A stretch of 40,820 nt of DNA, from NCBI GenBank assembly GCA_003142035.1, contig PLOF01000043.1, forward strand, positions 55,591 through 96,410, written 5' to 3'. Position 1 is the stretch's first letter; each line of letters begins with the position of its first letter. The notes under the pieces were generated by a model. That model was not told the DNA's origin. It made no database searches and saw nothing but the letters and a program-made list of their open reading frames with translations. Below are positions 17 to 30,691 of this stretch, in pieces. The stretch is from Candidatus Dormiibacterota bacterium. GTDB lineage: Bacteria; Chloroflexota; Dormibacteria; Aeolococcales; Aeolococcaceae. A program made the translations under genes and the position numbers.

Positions 17-3000
17 GTGATTGAGTTGCCCGCCGGAGGAGCGCCCACGCTGGCCTCCCGCCTGGACGAGGTGGCCCCCCTGGCCGCGCTCGCCAACGGC
101 TCCCTGCGCATCCTCGGCGGGGTCCCCTCGGCCGCGGTCGGGCTGATCGCCTGGTGGGCCCGCCGGCGTGCCTCCGGGCACGTCCTGGTGATTGCGACCG
201 ACCCGGAGACCGTCTATGCCGACGCCCGTCTCTGGGGTGGCGAGGCGCGGCTGGGCCTCTGGCCGGCCGCGGACACCCCCGGCTTTGACCGCATCCCCCC
301 GTCGGAGGAGGTGATCCGTCGCCGGATCGCCACCCTTGCCCTGCTCCGTGACGGCGAGCCGGCCCTGGTGGTCGCCTCCCCGGCCGGGCTGCTCCGCCCC
401 ACCCTCCCCACCACCGCGCTCGACGGCATCGGCGAGATCGGTCGGGGTACCCGGATCGGCCGCGACGCGATCATCGAGCGCCTCGTCCACCTCGGGTACC
501 GGCGGGTGACCGCGGTCACCGCGCCCGGCGAGATGGCCGTGCGGGGCGGCATCGTCGACGCCTTTGGCCTGGATCGCGGCCGCCCCTGGCGGGCGGAGTG
601 GTTTGGCGACGAGGTCGACGAGGTCCGGGCTTTCGACGTCGACACCCAGACCTCGGTCGCCCGGCTCGAGCGGGTGCGGCTGCTGCCCGCCCGCGAGCTC
701 GATCTGAGCGCCGCGGCGATCCGCCGGGCCCAACAGGCGGCTGCCGCCCTCGACATCGGCGGCTGCCGGCCCGAGGTTCGCGATCAGTGGCAGCAGGACC
801 TGGCCCAGCTCGAGCTGGGTGTCTACGACGACGGCGTCGACCTCTTCGCCCCGTATCTCAACCAGGGAGCCAGCCTCTTTGACCACCTGGGGGCGGGGGC
901 GCTGGTGCTGGTCGCCGGTGGTGTGGAGCGGGCTCGGCGCGCGGCCGTCCGTCATCTCGAGGAGATCGAAGGCCTCCGCGAGCAGGAGGAGGCGCGGGGT
1001 GAGCTGCCCGCCGGTGCCCGGAGTGGCCTGCTCGACGTGGGCGTCCTCGACGCCAACCTGAGCCGCGCCGTCGACCTGGTGCCTGGCGATGTCGAGGGCA
1101 CGGAGGGCGTGGCAGCGGCCGACCTCGGCTGGCGGGGCGCCGAGCCCTACGCCGGCCGCTGGGACGTCTTCTCCGCGGCCCTCGGCCAGGAGCTGGCCGG
1201 CGGCGGCTGCTGCGTGATCGTCTCCCGGCAGGAGGGGAGGGTGCAGGAGCTGACCGGTGACGCCGGGCTGGTGCCGACCATGGTCGACGACCCCGACGCC
1301 GCCACTCTCCCGGCACCGGCGGGGGCGCTGCTGGTCGCCGCCGGCGAGGTGTCCGCGGGGTTCCGGATGCCCGATCTGAGGATCGCCGTCTTCAGCGACC
1401 ACGAGCTCTTCGGTGCCGTGAAGCGGCGCGGCTCCCCGCTCGCCCGGGGGGCGCGGCGTGCCGAGTCGACCTCTGCCCGGGGCGCCCGCAAGGCAGCCGC
1501 GGGGCGGGCGGCGGCACCCGGGTTCGTCCTCGACTTCGCCCCCGGGGATCTCGTCGTCCACCGCGACCACGGCGTCGCCCGCTTCATCGAGATGCGGCGC
1601 GTCTCCGAGGCGGAGACCCCCGGCTCCGGCGGAACGGCCGGAGCCCCATCCGGCGCCGACCGTGGGCCGGCCGCGGCGGATGCAGCCGAGACCCCCGGGA
1701 GCACCACCGAGCAGGAGTACATGCTCCTCGAGTACGCCGACGGCGATCGCCTCTTCGTCCCGGTACAGCACCTCGACCGGATCGACCGCTACGTGGGGGG
1801 ATCCGACGCCCACCCCGCGCTCTCCCGCCTCGGCACCGGCGAGTGGGAGCGGACCAAGCGGCGGGTGCGCGAGCGGACCGAGGCCGTCGCCCGCGAGCTG
1901 CTCAACCTCTACTCGCGCCGTGAGGCCGCGCCCGGCCACGCCTTCTCCGTCGACTCCGACTGGCAGCGCGAGCTGGAGGGCTCGTTCCCCTTCGAGGAGA
2001 CCCCGGACCAGATGCTGGTGCTGGACGACATCAAGCGCGACATGGAGGCGTCCAGACCCATGGACCGGGTGGTCTGCGGTGACGTCGGGTTCGGCAAGAC
2101 CGAGCTCGCCCTGCGGGCGGCGTTCAAGGCGGTTGCCGAGGGGCGCCAGGCGGCCGTCCTGGTGCCCACCACCGTGCTCTGCCAGCAGCACTTCCTGACT
2201 TTCTCGGAGCGCCTCCGGCCTTTTCCGGTCATCGTTCAGCAGCTCTCGCGCTTCTGCACCGAGGAGGAGCAGCGAGCGACCCTGCTCGGGCTCAAGGCGG
2301 GGACCGTGGACATCGTGGTCGGCACCCATCGTCTGCTCCAGCGCGACGTCGAGTTTCGCAACCTGGGCCTGGTCATCATCGACGAGGAGCAGCGCTTCGG
2401 CGTCCTCCAGAAGGAGCGCTTCAAGGAGCTGCGCGTCGCCGTCGACGTGCTCTCGCTCTCGGCGACGCCGATACCGCGCACGCTGCACATGGCGCTCGCC
2501 GGCATCCGCGATCTCTCGGTCATCCAGACGCCTCCCGAGGAGCGCCAGCCCATCAAGACCTATGTCACCGCACGCGAGAATTCGCTCGTCCGCGAGGTGC
2601 TCACCCGTGAGCTGGCCCGGGGCGGCCAGGTCTTCTTCGTCCACAACCGCGTGCAGTCCATCGACCGAGAGGCTCAATGGCTGCGTGAGCTGGTGCCCGA
2701 GGCGCGCGTCGCCGTCGCGCACGGGCAGATGCATGAGGATTTGCTGGCATCGGTGATGCACTCTTTCGTGGAGGGCGAGGTCGACGTGCTCGCCTGCACG
2801 ACCATCATCGAGTCCGGACTGGACATCCCCAATGCCAACACCATCATCATCGACGACGCCCATCGCCTGGGCCTGGCCCAGCTCTACCAGCTGAGAGGGC
2901 GAGTCGGACGCGCCGGGCAGCGCGCCTACGCGTACCTCCTCTATCCGCCGGAGCGCACCCTCAGTGAGCGTGCCGACAAGCGTCTCGACGTCATCGGTGA

Positions 3001-3703
3001 GCTGCAGGACCTCGGAGCGGGATTCAAGCTCGCCATGCGCGACCTGGAGATCCGCGGTGCCGGCAACCTGTTGGGGGAGGAGCAGCACGGCGAGATCGCG
3101 GCGGTCGGCCTGGAGATGTACAACCGGCTCCTGGAGCAGGCTGTCCGTTCGCTGCAGGGCCGGCCGATGGCCGAGCTGCCGGCCCAGGTGACCGTATCGC
3201 TGCCCCAGGCGTCGTTCCTGCCCCCGGGCTACATCGGGGAGGAGCAGCTCCGGCTGCGCTGCTACCAGGACCTGGCCGCCTGCGTCACCGAGCCGGAGCT
3301 GGAGCGGAGGGCGAGGGGTCTCGCCGACCGCTTCGGACCGATGCCGCCGGAGGCGGAGGCGCTCGTCTTCTCGCTGCGGGTGCGGCTGCTCGCCGTCGCC
3401 GCCGGGGCTCAGGGCGTGGAGACCTGGCGCGGCGAGGCGGGCCCGCGGCTCGCCCCCGGCATCGCCGGCGCGCGCGGCGTCTCGGGGCGGATCGGTGCGG
3501 TGATCCAGCTCTCCTCGGGCCATGGGCTCGACCTCGAGGTGGTGGCCCGCCAGTTCCGGGCCTACATCGAGACCTCGCCGACCCGCATCTACTGCCTTCC
3601 GCCGCCCGGACGGTCGCCGGACGCGGACTGGGAGGGCGTGCTCCTGGGGGTGCTCCGGGAGCTGGGCCGGCTGACCCGGGCCCGCCAGCCCGTGCCCGCT
3701 TGA
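17..3703 (+). CDS. mfd: Transcription-repair coupling factor Mfd
   Basis: Mfd is a DNA translocase that removes RNA polymerase stalled at lesions and recruits UvrA. The 1228-residue product has the family's length and order: a UvrB-like N-terminal module, an RNA-polymerase-interacting domain (about 510-600, with [11 protein letters not shown]), a helicase core with Walker A GDVGFGKT (about 688-695), the DEEQRF box (about 789), SATPIPRT, and a C-terminal TRCF domain. A GTG at 17 is taken as start, but the frame stays open to the window's left edge, so the gene may begin further upstream. The RNAP-interacting domain carries an Ala/Gly/Pro/Glu-rich insertion (about residues 530-564) between the RRV strand and [11 protein letters not shown]. 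The family assignment is certain; the exact 5' end is not. Confidence 0.95.
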
Positions 3704-3729
3704 CCATCTCCACCAAATGAGGGAGCGAC

Positions 3730-3828
3730 GTGACCACCGTCCTGCTCCAACTCCTGCCGACGCTGGTGCTGGTCGGGATCGTGGTCTCATTCGTCTGGTG
3801 GATGGTCCGGCGACGGGATCGACGGTGA
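3730..3828 (+). CDS. 32-residue membrane micro-ORF copying FtsH TM2
   Basis: This GTG-started frame lies between mfd and mazG and ends 3 bases before mazG. A GAGGGAG Shine-Dalgarno stands 4 bases before the GTG. The product is one hydrophobic segment ([18 protein letters not shown]) followed by a basic tail, RRRDRR. It aligns without gaps to residues 113-140 of the FtsH encoded at 6560-8455; 19 of 24 core residues are identical, and DNA similarity extends a little upstream of the start. It is either a relic of a duplicated ftsH segment or a translated microprotein that could pack with FtsH in the membrane. The ribosome site, the preserved hydrophobicity and the tight coupling to mazG favour translation, but function is inference. 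Confidence 0.5.
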   Translation: MTTVLLQLLPTLVLVGIVVSFVWWMVRRRDRR

Positions 3829-3831
3829 GGG

Positions 3832-4797
3832 ATGGAGGAGCTCACCCTGGGGCTTCCCCCATCCAGATGGGAGGTTGCGATGCGTGAGGAGGCGGTGCAG
3901 TCGCTGCGCGAGCTCAATGAGGTCATCGAGCGGCTGCGGGCGCCCGGCGGCTGCCCCTGGGATCGAGCGCAGACTCATCGATCCCTCCGTCCGTACCTCC
4001 TGGAGGAGACGTACGAGACCCTGGAGGCGATCGACTCGCAGGGGACGGCCACCCTCCGCGAGGAGCTGGGCGACCTCCTCCTCCAAGTGCTGATGCACTG
4101 TGCCATCGCCGCCGAGCGGCCCGACGGCTTCGACATCGGGGACGTCGCCGAGACCACCCGGGCCAAGATGGTCCACCGCCATCCCCACGTCTTCGGCACC
4201 ACCACCGTCGCCGGCGCGGAGGAGGTGGTCGTCAACTGGGAAAAGCTGAAGCGCATCGAGAAGCGGGAGCGTCTCTCCCTCCTGGAGGGCGTCCCCCACG
4301 CCCTGCCGGCGCTCGCATTTGCCCAGGGGGTGCAGAAGCGGCCCGCCCGGGTCGGTTTCGATGAGACCCCCACCGTCGCCGCCGCCCTGGCCTGGCTGCG
4401 GGATGGGGTCGACGCGCTCGCGGCTCTCGCCACCGAGGCGCCGGCCAGGGCCGACCGTGGGGCGGACTGGTCGCCGGCCCCCACCGACACCGCCAGCGGG
4501 GAGGGCCTCGACGAGCCGGGGGCGGGTGAGCCGGCCACCGCCGGCACCGTGGCCGGCCATTCGCCGTCCCCGCCCCCGGCGAGCCGCGACCTGGAGTCGG
4601 CGATGGGGGAGCTCCTCTTCGCGGCGGTCGCGCTCGCCCGCCAGCTCCGGGTCAATCCCGAGGACGCCCTCCGCGGGCGGGCCGTCAGCTTCGCCGACCG
4701 CTTCCGGGCGCTGGAGACGGCGGCGCGCGCCGACGGCGCTGACCTCCACGATCTGAGCCCAGACGAGTGGCGCCGGCGCTGGGAGGCGACCGCGTAG
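3832..4797 (+). CDS. mazG: Nucleoside triphosphate pyrophosphohydrolase MazG
   Basis: MazG hydrolyses NTPs or dNTPs to NMP and pyrophosphate, cleaning the nucleotide pool and influencing stress signalling. The N-terminal MazG domain is intact: GGCPWDRAQTH, EETYE at 58-62, EELGD at 77-81, KMVHRHPHVFG and NWEKLK. The second domain starts near KRPARVGFDE but lacks a clear EExxE motif. An Ala/Gly/Pro-rich linker (about 200-255) takes its place before ESAMGELLFAAVALARQL. The ATG at 3832 sits 3 bases after the micro-ORF stop, suggesting translational coupling; an internal ATG at 3880 is a possible later start. The family is secure. Which domain is catalytic here is open. Confidence 0.9.
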   Translation: MEELTLGLPPSRWEVAMREEAVQSLRELNEVIERLRAPGGCPWDRAQTHRSLRPYLLEETYETLEAIDSQGTATLREELGDLLLQVLMHCAIAAERPDGFDIGDVAETTRAKMVHRHPHVFGTTTVAGAEEVVVNWEKLKRIEKRERLSLLEGVPHALPALAFAQGVQKRPARVGFDETPTVAAALAWLRDGVDALAALATEAPARADRGADWSPAPTDTASGEGLDEPGAGEPATAGTVAGHSPSPPPASRDLESAMGELLFAAVALARQLRVNPEDALRGRAVSFADRFRALETAARADGADLHDLSPDEWRRRWEATA

Positions 4798-4895: not shown

Positions 4896-5369
4896 ATGAA
4901 CGTCCCTGGTCCTCAGCGACCCCGCCCCTTCACGGCGCGACGGATCCTCGCACTCGTCGTCGCGGTCGCCTGCGGCTGGGTCGCCTACGCGCTCTACGGC
5001 GCGGCCGCCACGGACCACGCCGCCCAGGCTCGGGTGACCCAGCTCCAGGAGGCCAACGCCGCCCTCACCGCGCAGATCTCGCAGCGCGCCCAGGAGGTCA
5101 CCGAGGCCCAGAGCTCGCCGTGGCTGGAGGATCAGGCGCGGAGGCTCGGCTACCACCTGCCCGGCGAGAAGATCTACGTCCTCGACCCCGGCGCCAAGTC
5201 CGCGCCCTCCTCGGGTGGCCTCAACGCCGCGCCCCCCACCTTCATCCCCACCCCGGTCCCGACCCCCATCCCGACGCCCACCCCGACGCCGTCGCCCGCG
5301 CCGCCGCTGCCGAGCCTGGTGCCGGCCAGCCCGACCCCGGTCGCCGTGTCGCCGTCCCCGACCCCCTGA
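4896..5369 (+). CDS. FtsB/DivIC-like septum formation initiator protein
   Basis: The 157-residue product has the FtsB/DivIC layout. A short basic cytoplasmic N-terminus is followed by one transmembrane helix (about 15-37), a coiled coil (about 42-72, AARVTQLQEANAALTAQI region) and the family signature WLEDQARRLGYHLPGEKIYVL. The family acts in the divisome with FtsL and FtsQ-type partners. The C-terminal third is an extracytoplasmic Pro-Thr-Ser-rich tail (repeats of PTP), longer than in typical FtsB and perhaps reaching into the wall. The nearby translation genes give no direct functional link. The start ATG has no strong Shine-Dalgarno. A divisome role is inferred from fold and signature. Confidence 0.8.
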   Translation: MNVPGPQRPRPFTARRILALVVAVACGWVAYALYGAAATDHAAQARVTQLQEANAALTAQISQRAQEVTEAQSSPWLEDQARRLGYHLPGEKIYVLDPGAKSAPSSGGLNAAPPTFIPTPVPTPIPTPTPTPSPAPPLPSLVPASPTPVAVSPSPTP

Positions 5370-5527: not shown

Positions 5528-5602
5528 TGCGGCGTGGAGCAGTGGAAGCTCGTCGGGCTCATAACCCGAAGGTCGCTGGTTCGAATCCAGCCGCCGCAAC
5601 CA
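5528..5602 (+). tRNA. Initiator tRNA-fMet (anticodon CAT), CCA encoded
   Basis: A full cloverleaf can be drawn. Acceptor TGCGGCG (5528-5534) pairs with CGCCGCA (5592-5598). The D stem is GAGC/GCTC, the anticodon CAT lies at 5560-5562 in loop CTCATAA, and the T arm is GCTGG-TTCGAAT-CCAGC. A73 and CCA are encoded. Three consecutive G-C pairs in the anticodon stem (GGG/CCC) and the A11-T24 pair are initiator hallmarks. The first pair is T1-A72, not the usual C1xA72 mismatch. That is still weak, which fits formylation. Confidence 0.93.
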
Positions 5603-5667
5603 CTCCTCCCTCCTGCGTCGGTGCCGATGTCGCAGCTGTCGAGCGTCCGGCCCCCGGCGCCCCCTCC

Positions 5668-5740
5668 GGCGGTATAGCTCAGGTGGTAGAGCGCCCGGCT
5701 CATACCCGGTATGTCCCTGGTTCGACCCCAGGTACCGCCA
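5668..5740 (+). tRNA. CAT-anticodon tRNA, probably elongator tRNA-Met
   Basis: Acceptor GGCGGTA (5668-5674) pairs with TACCGCC (5733-5739). The D stem is GCTC/GAGC, the anticodon CAT lies at 5701-5703, and the T arm is CCTGG-TTCGACC-CCAGG with A73. CCA is not encoded, unlike the neighbour. The C11-G24 D-stem pair and lack of the GGG/CCC anticodon stem exclude an initiator. The GGC acceptor start resembles elongator tRNA-Met. A lysidine-modified tRNA-Ile2 also has gene anticodon CAT and cannot be fully excluded, particularly because tilS begins about 32 bases downstream. The anticodon stem has one C-T mismatch at its outer end. Confidence 0.88.
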
Positions 5741-5772
5741 CGTGGGCCCGGCAGCTCCCCCCCGGTGAGCGG

Positions 5773-6559: not shown

Positions 6560-8455
6560 ATGCGCAATACCCGGCGCCCCTTTTCCTGGATGCTCGGCGT
6601 ACTCCTGGTCGTGGTCATCCTCCTGGTCTTCTACGGCCGCTCCGGCACTCCGTCGACCACCATGTCGAGCGGCCAGCTGCAGCAGGCGATCCAGCTCTGG
6701 CAGACCAACCACACCGCGCCCAAGGCCATCGCCAACAGCGGCAGTGACGAGACCCACATCAGCAGCGACGGGAGTACGGTCACCTGGTATGACAATGCGG
6801 GGAGCCTCTATACCACCACCATCGGCGACAGCGACCAGGTCACCCATGAATTCCAGACCGCCGGCTACACCAACTACACAGACGATGGGAGCAGCTTGTC
6901 CGACGTCCTGATCAGCCTCCTGCCGACGCTGGTGCTCGTCGGGATCATGGTGTTCTTCGTCTGGTGGATGCTCCGGCAGAGCCAGTCGGGGAACAACCAG
7001 GCGATGTCCTTCGGGCGTAGCCGGGCCCGGCTGGTCGCCGGCGACAAGCCGTCGATCACCTTCATGGACGTCGCCGGGGTCGACGAGGCCAAGCAGGAGC
7101 TCGGCGAGATCGTCGAGTTCCTCAAGTACCCGGACAAGTTCACCGCCGTGGGCGCCCGCATCCCCAAGGGCGTCCTCCTGGTCGGCCCTCCGGGGACCGG
7201 CAAGACCCTGCTCTCCAAGGCGGTGGCCGGGGAGGCGGGCGTGCCCTTCTTCAGCATCTCCGGCTCGGAGTTCGTGGAGATGTTCGTCGGGGTGGGCGCC
7301 AGCCGGGTGCGCGACCTCTTCGACCAGGCCAAGAAGAATTCCCCCTGCATCGTCTTCGTGGACGAGATCGACGCCGTCGGTCGCCAGCGCGGCGCCGGCC
7401 TGGGCGGCGGCCATGACGAGCGTGAGCAGACCCTCAACCAGCTGCTCGTCGAGATGGACGGGTTCGAGACCGCGACCCACGTTATCGTCATCGCCGCCAC
7501 CAACCGCCCTGACGTCCTGGACCCCGCCCTGCTCCGTCCGGGACGTTTCGACCGCCACGTGATGCTCGACCGTCCCGACATCCGCGGGCGTCGGGCGATC
7601 CTGGAGGTCCACTCCCGGAACAAGCCGCTGGACCCGGCCGTCGACCTCGAGGTCCTCGCCAAGCAGACGCCTGGGTTCTCGGGGGCCGACCTCGCCAACC
7701 TGATCAACGAGGCGGCCATCCTGGCTGCGCGCCAGAACCGGAAGCTGGTCAGCATGCCGCACCTGGAGGAGGCGATCGCCCGGGTGATCGCCGGCCCGGA
7801 GCGCAAGAGCCGGATGATCAGTGAGAACGAGAAGGCCACCATCGCCTATCACGAGATGGGCCACGCCCTGGTCGGGATGAGCCTGGAGCACACCGATCCG
7901 GTGCACAAGATCTCCATCGTCAGCCGCGGCATGGCCCTGGGCTGGACCCTCTCGCTGCCCATCGAGGACAGGTACCTGGTCAGCAAGGCCGAGCTCCTCG
8001 ACCAGCTCGCCCAGATGCTCGGGGGACGCTGCGCCGAGGACCTCATCCTGGGCGAGGCCAACATCACGACTGGGGCGAGCGACGACATCCGCAAGGCCAC
8101 CGACCTGGCTCGCAAGATGGTCACCGAATGGGGGATGAGCGACAAGCTGGGCCCCCGCACTTTCGGCGAGCGCCAGGAGATGGTCTTCCTGGGCCGCGAC
8201 CTCGGCGAGCAGCGCAACTATTCCGAGGACATCGCCTCCGAGATCGACCAGGAGGTGCACCACCTGGTCGAGACCGCCTTCCTCCGGGCCAAGGAGGTCC
8301 TCCGCCGTCGCGAGCACATCCTCCGCGTGCTGGCCGCGCGCCTGACCGAGGTCGAGACCATGGAGGGGGCCGAGATGAAGCGGATCATCGACGAGATCGA
8401 GGGTACGCAGGAGCCGGCCGGGCCTGAGCTGGGCGAGGTGGCCGCCGGGGTCTGA
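6560..8455 (+). CDS. ftsH: ATP-dependent zinc metalloprotease FtsH
   Basis: FtsH is a hexameric membrane AAA+ protease that extracts and degrades membrane and short-lived cytosolic proteins. The 631-residue protein has TM1 (about 9-28), an extracytoplasmic domain rich in Ser/Thr/Asn, TM2 (about 115-139), Walker A GPPGTGKT at 209-216, Walker [10 protein letters not shown], the second region of homology ([17 protein letters not shown]), the zinc site HEMGH at 431-435, and the third ligand in GASDDI (D509). The ATG at 6560 lacks a Shine-Dalgarno but has TAGACT just upstream, so it may be translated from a leaderless message. The TM2 segment is duplicated in the micro-ORF after mfd. Confidence 0.96.
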
Positions 8456-14886: not shown

Positions 14887-14978
14887 GAGCGTAGGACCTT
14901 TCAGTACGCGGAGCGAGCACTAGGGATCTGCGCGAGCGAGGAGACGTGGGGGTGGTGCTTCGCTGCGGCCCGGCCGTC

Positions 14979-15056
14979 GGCACGCCCTGACTGGCGTGCC
15001 GCGCCCTCTGCTCGGCGGCATTGCAACTGCCGCCTGCGCAGAGCCTTCGCTGCGCA
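14979..15056. repeat. Three adjacent hairpins between convergent genes
   Basis: Three inverted repeats follow each other. GGCACGCC/GGCGTGCC spans 14979-15000 with a 6-base loop, GGCGGCA/TGCCGCC spans 15014-15034 with a 7-base loop, and TGCGCAG/CTGCGCA spans 15035-15056 with an 8-base loop. They sit between nadC and the minus-strand DUF2017 gene. They could form a bidirectional terminator, a REP-like element or part of a structured RNA. Confidence 0.5.
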
Positions 15057-15088
15057 CGCACCCCCGCTTCTCCTGAGGTGGTCCGCCC

Positions 15089-16601: not shown

Positions 16602-18143
16602 TTGGCCCCCAGCGTTGAAACCCCGGAGCGCGAGCCGCTCACCATGGAGGACCTTCTCCGCGAGGAGGAGGGCAACGTCAAGTCCCTCGCCTACGGCGAC
16701 ATCGTCGAAGGCGTGGTGGTGCGGGTCGATCCCGATGAGGTGCTGGTCGACATCGGGGCCAAGTCGGAGGGCGTGATCTCCAACCGAGAGCTCTCCGGCC
16801 GCAACGAGGCCGCGGTGATCCTGGTATCCGGCGAGCGGGTCAAGGTGTACGTCCTCCAGCCCGAGGACGAGGAGGGGCGCGTCATCCTCTCGCTCCGCAA
16901 GGCCCGCGCCGAGTCGATCTGGCAGGCGGTCGCCGAGAAGGAGTCGGAGGGCGAGATCCTCGACGCCGAGGTCCGCGAGCAGAACAAGGGCGGCCTGATC
17001 GTCAACATCATGGGGCTGCGCGGCTTCCTGCCCTCCAGCCAGGTGGCGCGCCAGTTTTCCGGCAACCTGATGGAGCTGGTGGGGACCAAGATCCCCGTCA
17101 AGATCCTCGAGGTCAACCGCAAGCGCAACCGGCTCATCGTCTCCCAGCGCGCTGCGCAGGACGAGGACAGGGCGCGCCAGCGCGAGGAGCTCTTCGAGAA
17201 GCTCAAGGTCGGCGACATGATCACCGGCAAGGTGAGCGGACTGACCAGCTACGGTGCCTTCGTCAACCTCGGCGGCGCCGATGGTCTGATCCACATCAGC
17301 GAGCTCTCCTGGGACCGCATCAACAACGTGTCGGACATGCTGAGTGTCGGGGACGAGGTCCGGGTCAAGGTCATCAAGCTCGACCCCGAGCTCTCCCGCA
17401 TCAGTCTCTCGTTGCGCCAGCTGAGCGACGACCCGTGGGACACCATCGAGGACCGCTTCCCACCCGGGAAGGTGGTCGACGGCGAGGTCACCAAGACCAA
17501 GAAGTACGGTGCCTTCCTCCAGATCGCCGACGGTGTCGAGGGACTGCTGCACATCAGCGAGCTCTCCTGGGACCACGTCGAGCGTACCGAGGACATTCTC
17601 AAGATCGGCGAGGAGGTCAAGGTGATGGTGCTGAGCGCCGACCGCGCCCGGCGCCGCATCAGCCTCTCGCTCCGCCAGCTCCACGGTGGCGGGCCGGAGG
17701 GGCCGGCCGAGTACGTGCCGCCCACCTACGACCTCGGTGACGACTCGGACCAGGTCGACGATGAGTCGGCGGCGCAGGCCGAGCCCGCAGCCGCGACCGA
17801 GGACGTCGTGGTCGTGACGGAGTCGGCGGCTGAGCTCGACGAGAGCGTCGAGGCAGCGGCCCTGCCGGAGGTCGAGGGCGAGGTGGTCCTTGCCGAGGCA
17901 TCAGGGGAGACCGAGGTCGAGCCGGAGCCTGCGCAGTCCGCCGGGGAGACCGTGGCCGCAGCCGATGCGGTGATGGTCGAGGCCGAGGCGGTCCTGGTCG
18001 AGGCGCTCGCCGAGGCCGAGGAGGCCCTCGAGGGGTCTCCGGACGAAGGGGCGCCCGAGGCGCCCGACGCGGAGGCGTCCGCGCCCGAGCCGGCGGCGTC
18101 AGAGCCGGCGGATACCGCCGTCGAGCCCGAGCCCGAGGCGTAG
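16602..18143 (+). CDS. rpsA: Ribosomal protein S1 (four S1 domains, acidic tail)
   Basis: S1 helps load mRNA on the 30S subunit. Four S1 (OB-fold) repeats are visible: about 27-100, 113-185, 201-270 (KVSGLTSYGAFVNLGGADGL) and 286-357 (TKTKKYGAFLQIADGVEGL), the last two each followed by LLHISELSW or LIHISELSW. Residues from about 363 to 513 are an acidic Ala/Glu/Val/Pro-rich tail without domains. The TTG start at 16602 has AGGAG 4-5 bases before it; a GTG at 16470 would add an Arg/Pro-rich extension with no homology. A strong hairpin follows the stop. Confidence 0.92.
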   Translation: MAPSVETPEREPLTMEDLLREEEGNVKSLAYGDIVEGVVVRVDPDEVLVDIGAKSEGVISNRELSGRNEAAVILVSGERVKVYVLQPEDEEGRVILSLRKARAESIWQAVAEKESEGEILDAEVREQNKGGLIVNIMGLRGFLPSSQVARQFSGNLMELVGTKIPVKILEVNRKRNRLIVSQRAAQDEDRARQREELFEKLKVGDMITGKVSGLTSYGAFVNLGGADGLIHISELSWDRINNVSDMLSVGDEVRVKVIKLDPELSRISLSLRQLSDDPWDTIEDRFPPGKVVDGEVTKTKKYGAFLQIADGVEGLLHISELSWDHVERTEDILKIGEEVKVMVLSADRARRRISLSLRQLHGGGPEGPAEYVPPTYDLGDDSDQVDDESAAQAEPAAATEDVVVVTESAAELDESVEAAALPEVEGEVVLAEASGETEVEPEPAQSAGETVAAADAVMVEAEAVLVEALAEAEEALEGSPDEGAPEAPDAEASAPEPAASEPADTAVEPEPEA

Positions 18144-24110: not shown

Positions 24111-24405
24111 CCTGGATCGGTGAGTTTGAGGGTGGGAGCCGGTGCCGAGACCGGGGTGGTCGACGGTGGTGAGGTGACCGGATGAGCCTCCCGCACCTAG
24201 GTCACGCGGGGCAGTCGGAACAGCGCGGGTATAGATGCCGCCCCCTGCTCAAGATTCCCCAACCTCGCCAGGCGAGGCTGCTCTCGCTGTCACATGGGGG
24301 ATCCCGGTCGACGGTGGATTCTTCGCTCACCAGCCGACGACCGTGCAGATGGCACAGGCGATGGGAGGCGGTGCGAAGTAGGCCGGTGGGACCGATGTCC
24401 CTACG
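24111..24405. other. Gene-free stretch between convergent genes
   Basis: Frames here lack conserved motifs. The only clear structure is the near-perfect palindrome CCTCGCC-A-GGCGAGG (24263-24277), which could be part of a terminator or a protein-binding site. The preceding gene and the minus-strand HAD gene converge on it. Confidence 0.4.
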
Positions 24406-25089
24406 TCACCCCCGGATTCCCAGCTCATCGAGGTGGAGCCAGAGGCCGGCAGGGTCATGGTAGACGCGGAAGGCGCCCGCCACCTCGAGCTCCTGGCGGC
24501 TGTAGCCACCCGATAGCAGGCCCACGCCCAGTGCTCCGGCGCGGCGGGCGGCGAGGACATCCCAGATGCTGTCCCCCACGACGACGGAGTTGGTGATGGC
24601 TACCCCCAACCGATCGGCGGCGGCGAGGAAGAGGTCAGGATCGGGCTTGGCAAAGGGGACCTCGTCGCGGGTGACGACCGGCACCGACGCCGGCACTCCC
24701 AGCTTGGCGAGATTGGGGCCGGCGGTCGCCTGGGTGCCACTGGTGGCGATCGCCCAGAGGACACCACGCCGAGAGAGGTCGCGGAGCAACTCGACCGCCC
24801 CGGGCAGCGGCCGAACGTGCGGTGCGAGTTCACGGAAGATGCGAGCGTGGCCCGCCTGCAGCGCCGCCACCTGCTCCGCGGAGAACTCCCTGCCCATCTC
24901 TCTGGCGAGAGCGTTTACCAGCAGCCCGTTGCTCATGCCCACACGGCGGTGGATGCGCCAGGTGGAGAGGTCCAGGCCCTCGTTCTCCAGCGCGGTGCGC
25001 CAGGCGATCACATGCTGGTAGACGCTGTCCACCAGAGTGCCGTCCAGATCGAAGAGCAGAGCCGGTTCCTTGCTCGTGTCCAAGACCAC
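24406..25089 (-). CDS. HAD-superfamily phosphatase
   Basis: The product has the haloacid dehalogenase fold with a helical cap. Motif I is DLDGT (Asp14, Asp16), the cap follows (residues about 24-90), motif II is ATSGT, motif III is the Lys in FAKPDPDLFL, and motif IV is VVGDSIWDV. It is close to the phosphoglycolate phosphatase/beta-phosphoglucomutase group; the substrate is probably a small phosphorylated sugar or related compound. GTG at 25089 starts 15 bases after the aldo/keto reductase stop, so the two form an operon. A frameshifted copy of its last third lies at 30455-30648. Confidence 0.88.
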   Translation of the reverse strand: MVLDTSKEPALLFDLDGTLVDSVYQHVIAWRTALENEGLDLSTWRIHRRVGMSNGLLVNALAREMGREFSAEQVAALQAGHARIFRELAPHVRPLPGAVELLRDLSRRGVLWAIATSGTQATAGPNLAKLGVPASVPVVTRDEVPFAKPDPDLFLAAADRLGVAITNSVVVGDSIWDVLAARRAGALGVGLLSGGYSRQELEVAGAFRVYHDPAGLWLHLDELGIRG

Positions 25090-30454: not shown

Positions 30455-30648
30455 ACCACCACCCACTTCGCCGTCGTGGGGAATCTCACCTGGGATCTGC
30501 TCGGCGCCCGCTCTGCGGGGCGCTGGGAGTTGACCTCTCCTCGGGCGGGGACGGCCGCCAGCCGCGGGAGGTGGCGGCCGCCTTCCGCGTGTACCATGAC
30601 CAAGCCGCGCTCCGGCTCCACCTGGATGAGCTGGGCATTCGGAGGTGA
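30455..30648 (+). pseudogene. Frameshifted relic of the HAD phosphatase C-terminus
   Basis: Translated in two frames, this piece matches the last 60 or so residues of the HAD protein at 24406-25089. The first frame reads AVVGNLTWDLLGARSAG (against VVVGDSIWDVLAARRAG). After a lost base near 30520 the next frame reads ALGVDLSSGG, then EVAAAFRVYHDQAALRLHLDELGIRR and a stop. The motif IV aspartate has become Asn. The 5' two-thirds of the gene are absent. It is a dead partial copy on the opposite strand, immediately before the encapsulated ferritin gene. Confidence 0.75.
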
Positions 30649-30691
30649 AGTCCCGCTCGCGGCGGCACGATCCTGAAAGGAGAGGCACCCG

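Follow-up and report, generated by a model that had tools for sequence, protein, structure and literature searches.

A short partial copy of ftsH in the mfd–mazG spacer of a Candidatus Dormibacterota genome, probably neutral and with an incidental membrane ORF

In a metagenome-assembled genome (MAG) of an uncultured soil bacterium, Candidatus Dormibacterota, the neighboring genes mfd and mazG are followed by ftsH in the same orientation, and the gap between mfd and mazG holds a 32-codon frame resembling TM2 of FtsH. The window, i.e., the whole stretch of DNA that was analyzed, is 40,820 nt long, and all coordinates refer to it. Comparisons within the genus drew on six further species, referred to as G001 to G006, with the host as G000. 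The features at the locus are as follows:

17..3703, + strand: mfd (transcription-repair coupling factor), left neighbor; Pfam UvrB_inter, CarD_TRCF_RID, DEAD, Helicase_C and TRCF
3704..3811, + strand: copied ftsH piece between mfd and mazG; 77–79% DNA identity to ftsH 6860–6977, E = 6e-21; empty site in G004
3720..3725, + strand: Shine-Dalgarno-like AGGGAG, 4 nt before the GTG; its GGGAG part is inherited from ftsH Gly-Ser codons
3730..3828, + strand: 32-codon frame with a GTG start, from translation; one predicted membrane helix, C-terminus RRRDRR; probably incidental
3812..3828, + strand: tail coding RRDRR and the stop; pre-existing spacer DNA, not ftsH, aligning with the insert-free spacer of G004 and G001
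3880..4797, + strand: mazG, right neighbor; Pfam MazG PF03819, 7e-27; start context GGAGGTTGCGATG common to relatives
6870..6977, + strand: matching stretch of the resident ftsH (end of the periplasmic part and TM2), from the alignment with the copy and the repeat scan

The resident ftsH is identified by Pfam Peptidase_M41 (3e-66) and AAA (7e-47). For mazG, the start is probably the ATG at 3880, which has GGAGG just upstream and a context common to relatives; the start of the longest ORF, at 3832, is probably wrong. With mazG starting at 3880, the insert sits in a true intergenic gap (3704–3879). The closest MazG records are those of the fen_839 and palsa_874 MAGs (91–92%). Further along, the ORF at 5215 encodes a PP-loop protein by Pfam that is TilS-like in its context, and two tRNA-Met (CAT) genes, 65 bases apart, lie at 5528–5741 upstream of the tilS-like gene. 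One of the pair may be the tRNA whose CAU anticodon is modified by TilS for Ile.

The likeness between the 32-codon frame and ftsH is DNA homology. The initial annotation had described a frame of this length matching FtsH TM2 at 19 of 24 residues, and translation and residue alignment bear this out (ftsH ORF, window from about 6905). Compared codon by codon, 16 of 78 bases differ. A blastn search of the host's own genome with a 191-nt query (3690–3880) returned a single strong second match, which was ftsH (118 nt, 79% identity, E = 6.2e-21). Independently of blastn, a repeat scan of the window paired 3694–3811 with 6860–6977 at 77%. Together, these matches indicate homology rather than chance resemblance. 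The helix of the 32-residue peptide has a Kyte-Doolittle mean of 2.54 over 19 residues, versus 2.81 for TM2 of the G004 FtsH; a Pfam search with the peptide found no family.

The homology is not confined to the frame. It runs ungapped from about 3703–3704, ~26 nt upstream of the GTG, to about 3809–3811, and it contains a TGA stop of the FtsH frame at 3718, also upstream of the GTG. The copied piece, at ~105 bp, is longer than the ORF within it. Since the homology starts well 5′ of the start codon and crosses a stop in the FtsH frame, the copied unit is ~105 bp of ftsH rather than an ORF. The alignment of G004 to the window is continuous up to 3706 and resumes at 3808, with about a dozen bases in between, i.e., an empty site. 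At the left joint, ftsH and the mfd stop of the empty site have ACCA in common; at the right joint, the shared sequence is CGG. This short shared sequence leaves both breakpoints uncertain to within a few bases. The RRDRR codons and the stop lie in old spacer, as judged from similar DNA at this place in G004 and G001, which lack the ftsH piece.

The locus therefore has what defines a partial gene duplication: homology to a donor gene, bounded ends, and an empty site in relatives (G004 and G001). No further ftsH pieces flank the fragment; homology ends near 3704 and 3811, and the flanks are mfd and spacer common to relatives. This rules out the remnant of a complete second ftsH. The initial annotation had offered a decayed, duplicated ftsH as its alternative, and the fragment is indeed a piece of ftsH, but a short internal insertion of ~105 bp rather than what is left of a whole gene. 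An antisense (base-pairing) role was rejected, as the copy lies in the same sense as ftsH. It is extremely improbable that the insert was created by MAG assembly. In its favor, the data are of the MAG type, and in G002 the mfd–mazG junction and ftsH each contain a run of N. However, the insert and the resident ftsH disagree at 25 of 109 sites, so the insert cannot be misplaced copies of the same reads, and we rejected this reading on that difference; in addition, the sequence on either side runs without interruption into the genome's own mfd and mazG, within a contig of 167 kb.

The copy was found in a single genome. The mfd–mazG spacer is present without the insert in G001 and G004, is only 14 nt long in G005, and holds an unrelated dispersed repeat instead in G003; the junction is unreadable in G002 (a run of N) and in G006 (not assembled). 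The ORF occurs in G000 alone of 61 genomes searched and is missing from the readable junctions of G001, G004 and G005. No free-standing copy of the peptide was found in the 61 genomes, in which every strong match besides the ORF itself was ftsH, and an order-wide search of 50 genomes for such copies added nothing further. The unrelated insertion in G003 indicates that the gap tolerates insertions. The species tree places the genomes as ((G000,G005),G006),((G001,G002),G004), with G003 as the outgroup, and has low support at some nodes (57, 80 and 85; concatenated).

The G003 insertion belongs to a dispersed repeat of ~135 bp, represented in the window at 14940–15074. This repeat is mainly limited to the genus, with few, weak matches outside it; there are 6–7 matches in the host genome, 13 each in G003 and G006, and 10 in G004. 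One copy is the one in the mfd–mazG spacer of G003 and another follows mazG in G004. Folding of the repeat yields a highly stable hairpin (−87 kcal/mol, z −6.1), and Rfam at gathering thresholds returned nothing for it. The window also contains an inverted pair at 24403–24599 and 30456–30651 (197 nt, 77% identity) and a direct repeat at 17250–17422 and 17505–17680 (71%), the latter suggestive of the repeated S1 domains of ribosomal protein S1.

The signals that make the frame look like a gene come from ftsH. The only new change at the start codon is T to G at 3730; in place of the GTG, the genus ftsH genes have TTG, a Leu codon. The initial annotation had assigned the frame a Shine-Dalgarno; a Shine-Dalgarno-like AGGGAG is there, at a short spacing of 4 nt from the GTG, but its GGGAG comes from inherited Gly-Ser codons. 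GGGAGC (Gly-Ser) is present in the ftsH of the window, G001, G004, G005 and G006, with the stretch being N or absent in G002. Because the start codon and GGGAG are inherited from ftsH codons, we did not count these signals as evidence for a gene. A scan for promoter- or terminator-like sites near the ORF gave none.

We next consider selection on the frame, taking as private those bases of the copy that differ from the six extant ftsH genes of the genus. Nine private changes fall in the ORF part, distributed 5:2:2 over codon positions 1:2:3, a count from one sequence with little power; over the same stretch, the variable sites of the genus ftsH genes are distributed 3:1:7. We also simulated neutral change on the G004 ftsH stretch, with the number of substitutions matched and no insertions or deletions. 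Seven amino acid changes were observed in the ORF, versus a neutral mean of 8.4. The probability of no stop arising was 0.81, and that of keeping both start and frame was 0.50, an upper estimate because insertions and deletions were left out. Among simulations that kept the start and frame, 13% were as hydrophobic as observed. The helix has gained no charged residue, as was also true of 43% of the intact simulations. Private changes are denser before the Shine-Dalgarno-like site than after it (6/17 versus 9/89, Fisher p = 0.015), which could reflect weak constraint on the ORF; however, this contrast involves only 17 bases beside a breakpoint of uncertain position, and the dividing point was set with the data already in view; we do not build on it. 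Overall, the changes in the copy fit neutral drift, which the comparison neither rejects nor proves, and the frame has probably not been kept by selection.

These results bear on the proposal, made in the initial annotation, that the frame encodes a membrane peptide packing into FtsH. Such a young, putative microprotein would pack into the FtsH hexamer or compete for its partners, tuning proteolysis; if functional, it might form a single helix, N-out/C-in like FtsH TM2, whose Arg-rich end faces the cytoplasm. It would have in its favor an intact frame with a start and a Shine-Dalgarno-like site, the same direction as mfd and mazG, a helix that has kept its hydrophobicity, a positive C-terminal tail, and the lower density of private changes 3′ of the Shine-Dalgarno-like site. 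However, the ORF is known from one genome and is missing from the same place in three congeners, the 5:2:2 pattern gives no sign of coding constraint, the Shine-Dalgarno-like site and start derive from codons of ftsH, and there is neither a promoter-like site nearby nor a Pfam family. The proposal thus found no support: the ORF is missing at the same site in every congener where it can be read, and substitutions lack the third-position bias expected of a functional peptide, an outcome that had been named beforehand as counting against it. We regard a functional microprotein as improbable, and its more specific form, a newborn microprotein in which a copied FtsH helix, with start and ribosome site taken from the parent gene, modulates FtsH assembly, as slightly more so.

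Very probably, the locus is a neutral, lineage-specific partial duplication of ftsH with an incidental membrane ORF. The evidence for neutral duplication comprises (i) homology extending beyond the start codon and across the FtsH-frame stop; (ii) empty or short spacers in relatives; (iii) the absence of free copies; (iv) the 5:2:2 distribution of changes; (v) the outcome of the neutral simulation; and (vi) the unrelated insertion in the same spacer of G003. Counted against it are a frame that stayed open and hydrophobic, a helix that gained no charge, and the p = 0.015 contrast. The likely course of events is that ~105 bp of ftsH were copied into the mfd–mazG spacer during DNA repair or replication, with a few bases of shared sequence used at the joints and about a dozen spacer bases replaced. 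The piece would have brought along a Leu codon usable as a start (TTG, now GTG), a GGGAG resembling a Shine-Dalgarno, and an open TM2 frame, which would then have continued through spacer DNA that supplies the RRDRR codons and a stop.

The donor may have been the resident ftsH before its latest changes or the ftsH of a near relative. The copy is closer to the G004 ftsH (89/109) than to the resident gene (84/109); it has GGGAGCGAC.TGACCACC, as in G004 and G006, whereas the resident ftsH has GGGAGCAGCTTGTCCGAC, largely common to G005. This pattern suggests that either the copying predates the changes common to the ftsH genes of G000 and G005, or a related species supplied the piece. If the former, G005 has since lost the spacer. 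A single-gene mazG tree and a tree of the 109-nt fragment have too little support to place the copying in time. Acquisition of the piece from the ftsH of another species by recombination would account for the similarity to G004 and G006, but the same pattern is expected if the resident gene acquired its latest changes after the copying, other sites match the resident gene rather than G004, and no donor flank was carried along; we consider this variant of neutral duplication, which bears only on the donor, unlikely.

The partial duplication is real, well-defined and ordinary, and a function for it is unsupported. It is a small, well-resolved example of how an internal piece of a gene, placed in a spacer, can instantly give a membrane ORF with a start codon and a ribosome-site-like sequence. 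Were the peptide made and able to bind FtsH, it would show how a protease can acquire a regulator derived from itself, but nothing points to this here.

Short templated insertions and partial gene duplications occur at repair sites. The copy described here resembles them in comprising ~100 bp from a nearby gene, with little shared sequence at the joints and a small loss at the target, and differs in no evident way except for an open frame kept by chance.

Small peptides that inhibit FtsH include SpoVM of Bacillus subtilis. To our knowledge, CIII of phage lambda is not derived from FtsH, and known FtsH-directed peptides are not copies of it. CIII is an amphipathic, oligomeric competitive inhibitor of FtsH that is conserved in phages (PMC1838920). 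CIII and SpoVM are short helical peptides, and by analogy an FtsH-acting peptide at this locus would work similarly; unlike CIII, the peptide here is a predicted hydrophobic single-pass helix without conservation.

Small ORFs of the intergenic, hydrophobic and lineage-restricted kind are common in bacteria. In Enterobacteriaceae, a survey of lineage-specific intergenic small ORFs found their products to be mainly hydrophobic and potentially transmembrane, with most of the potentially translated ones showing no sign of selection (PMC11188072). The frame between mfd and mazG is alike in being intergenic, within the range of 15–70 codons, hydrophobic and limited to few genomes. It differs in that its origin is visible: it was copied from a gene of known identity rather than arising from anonymous DNA.
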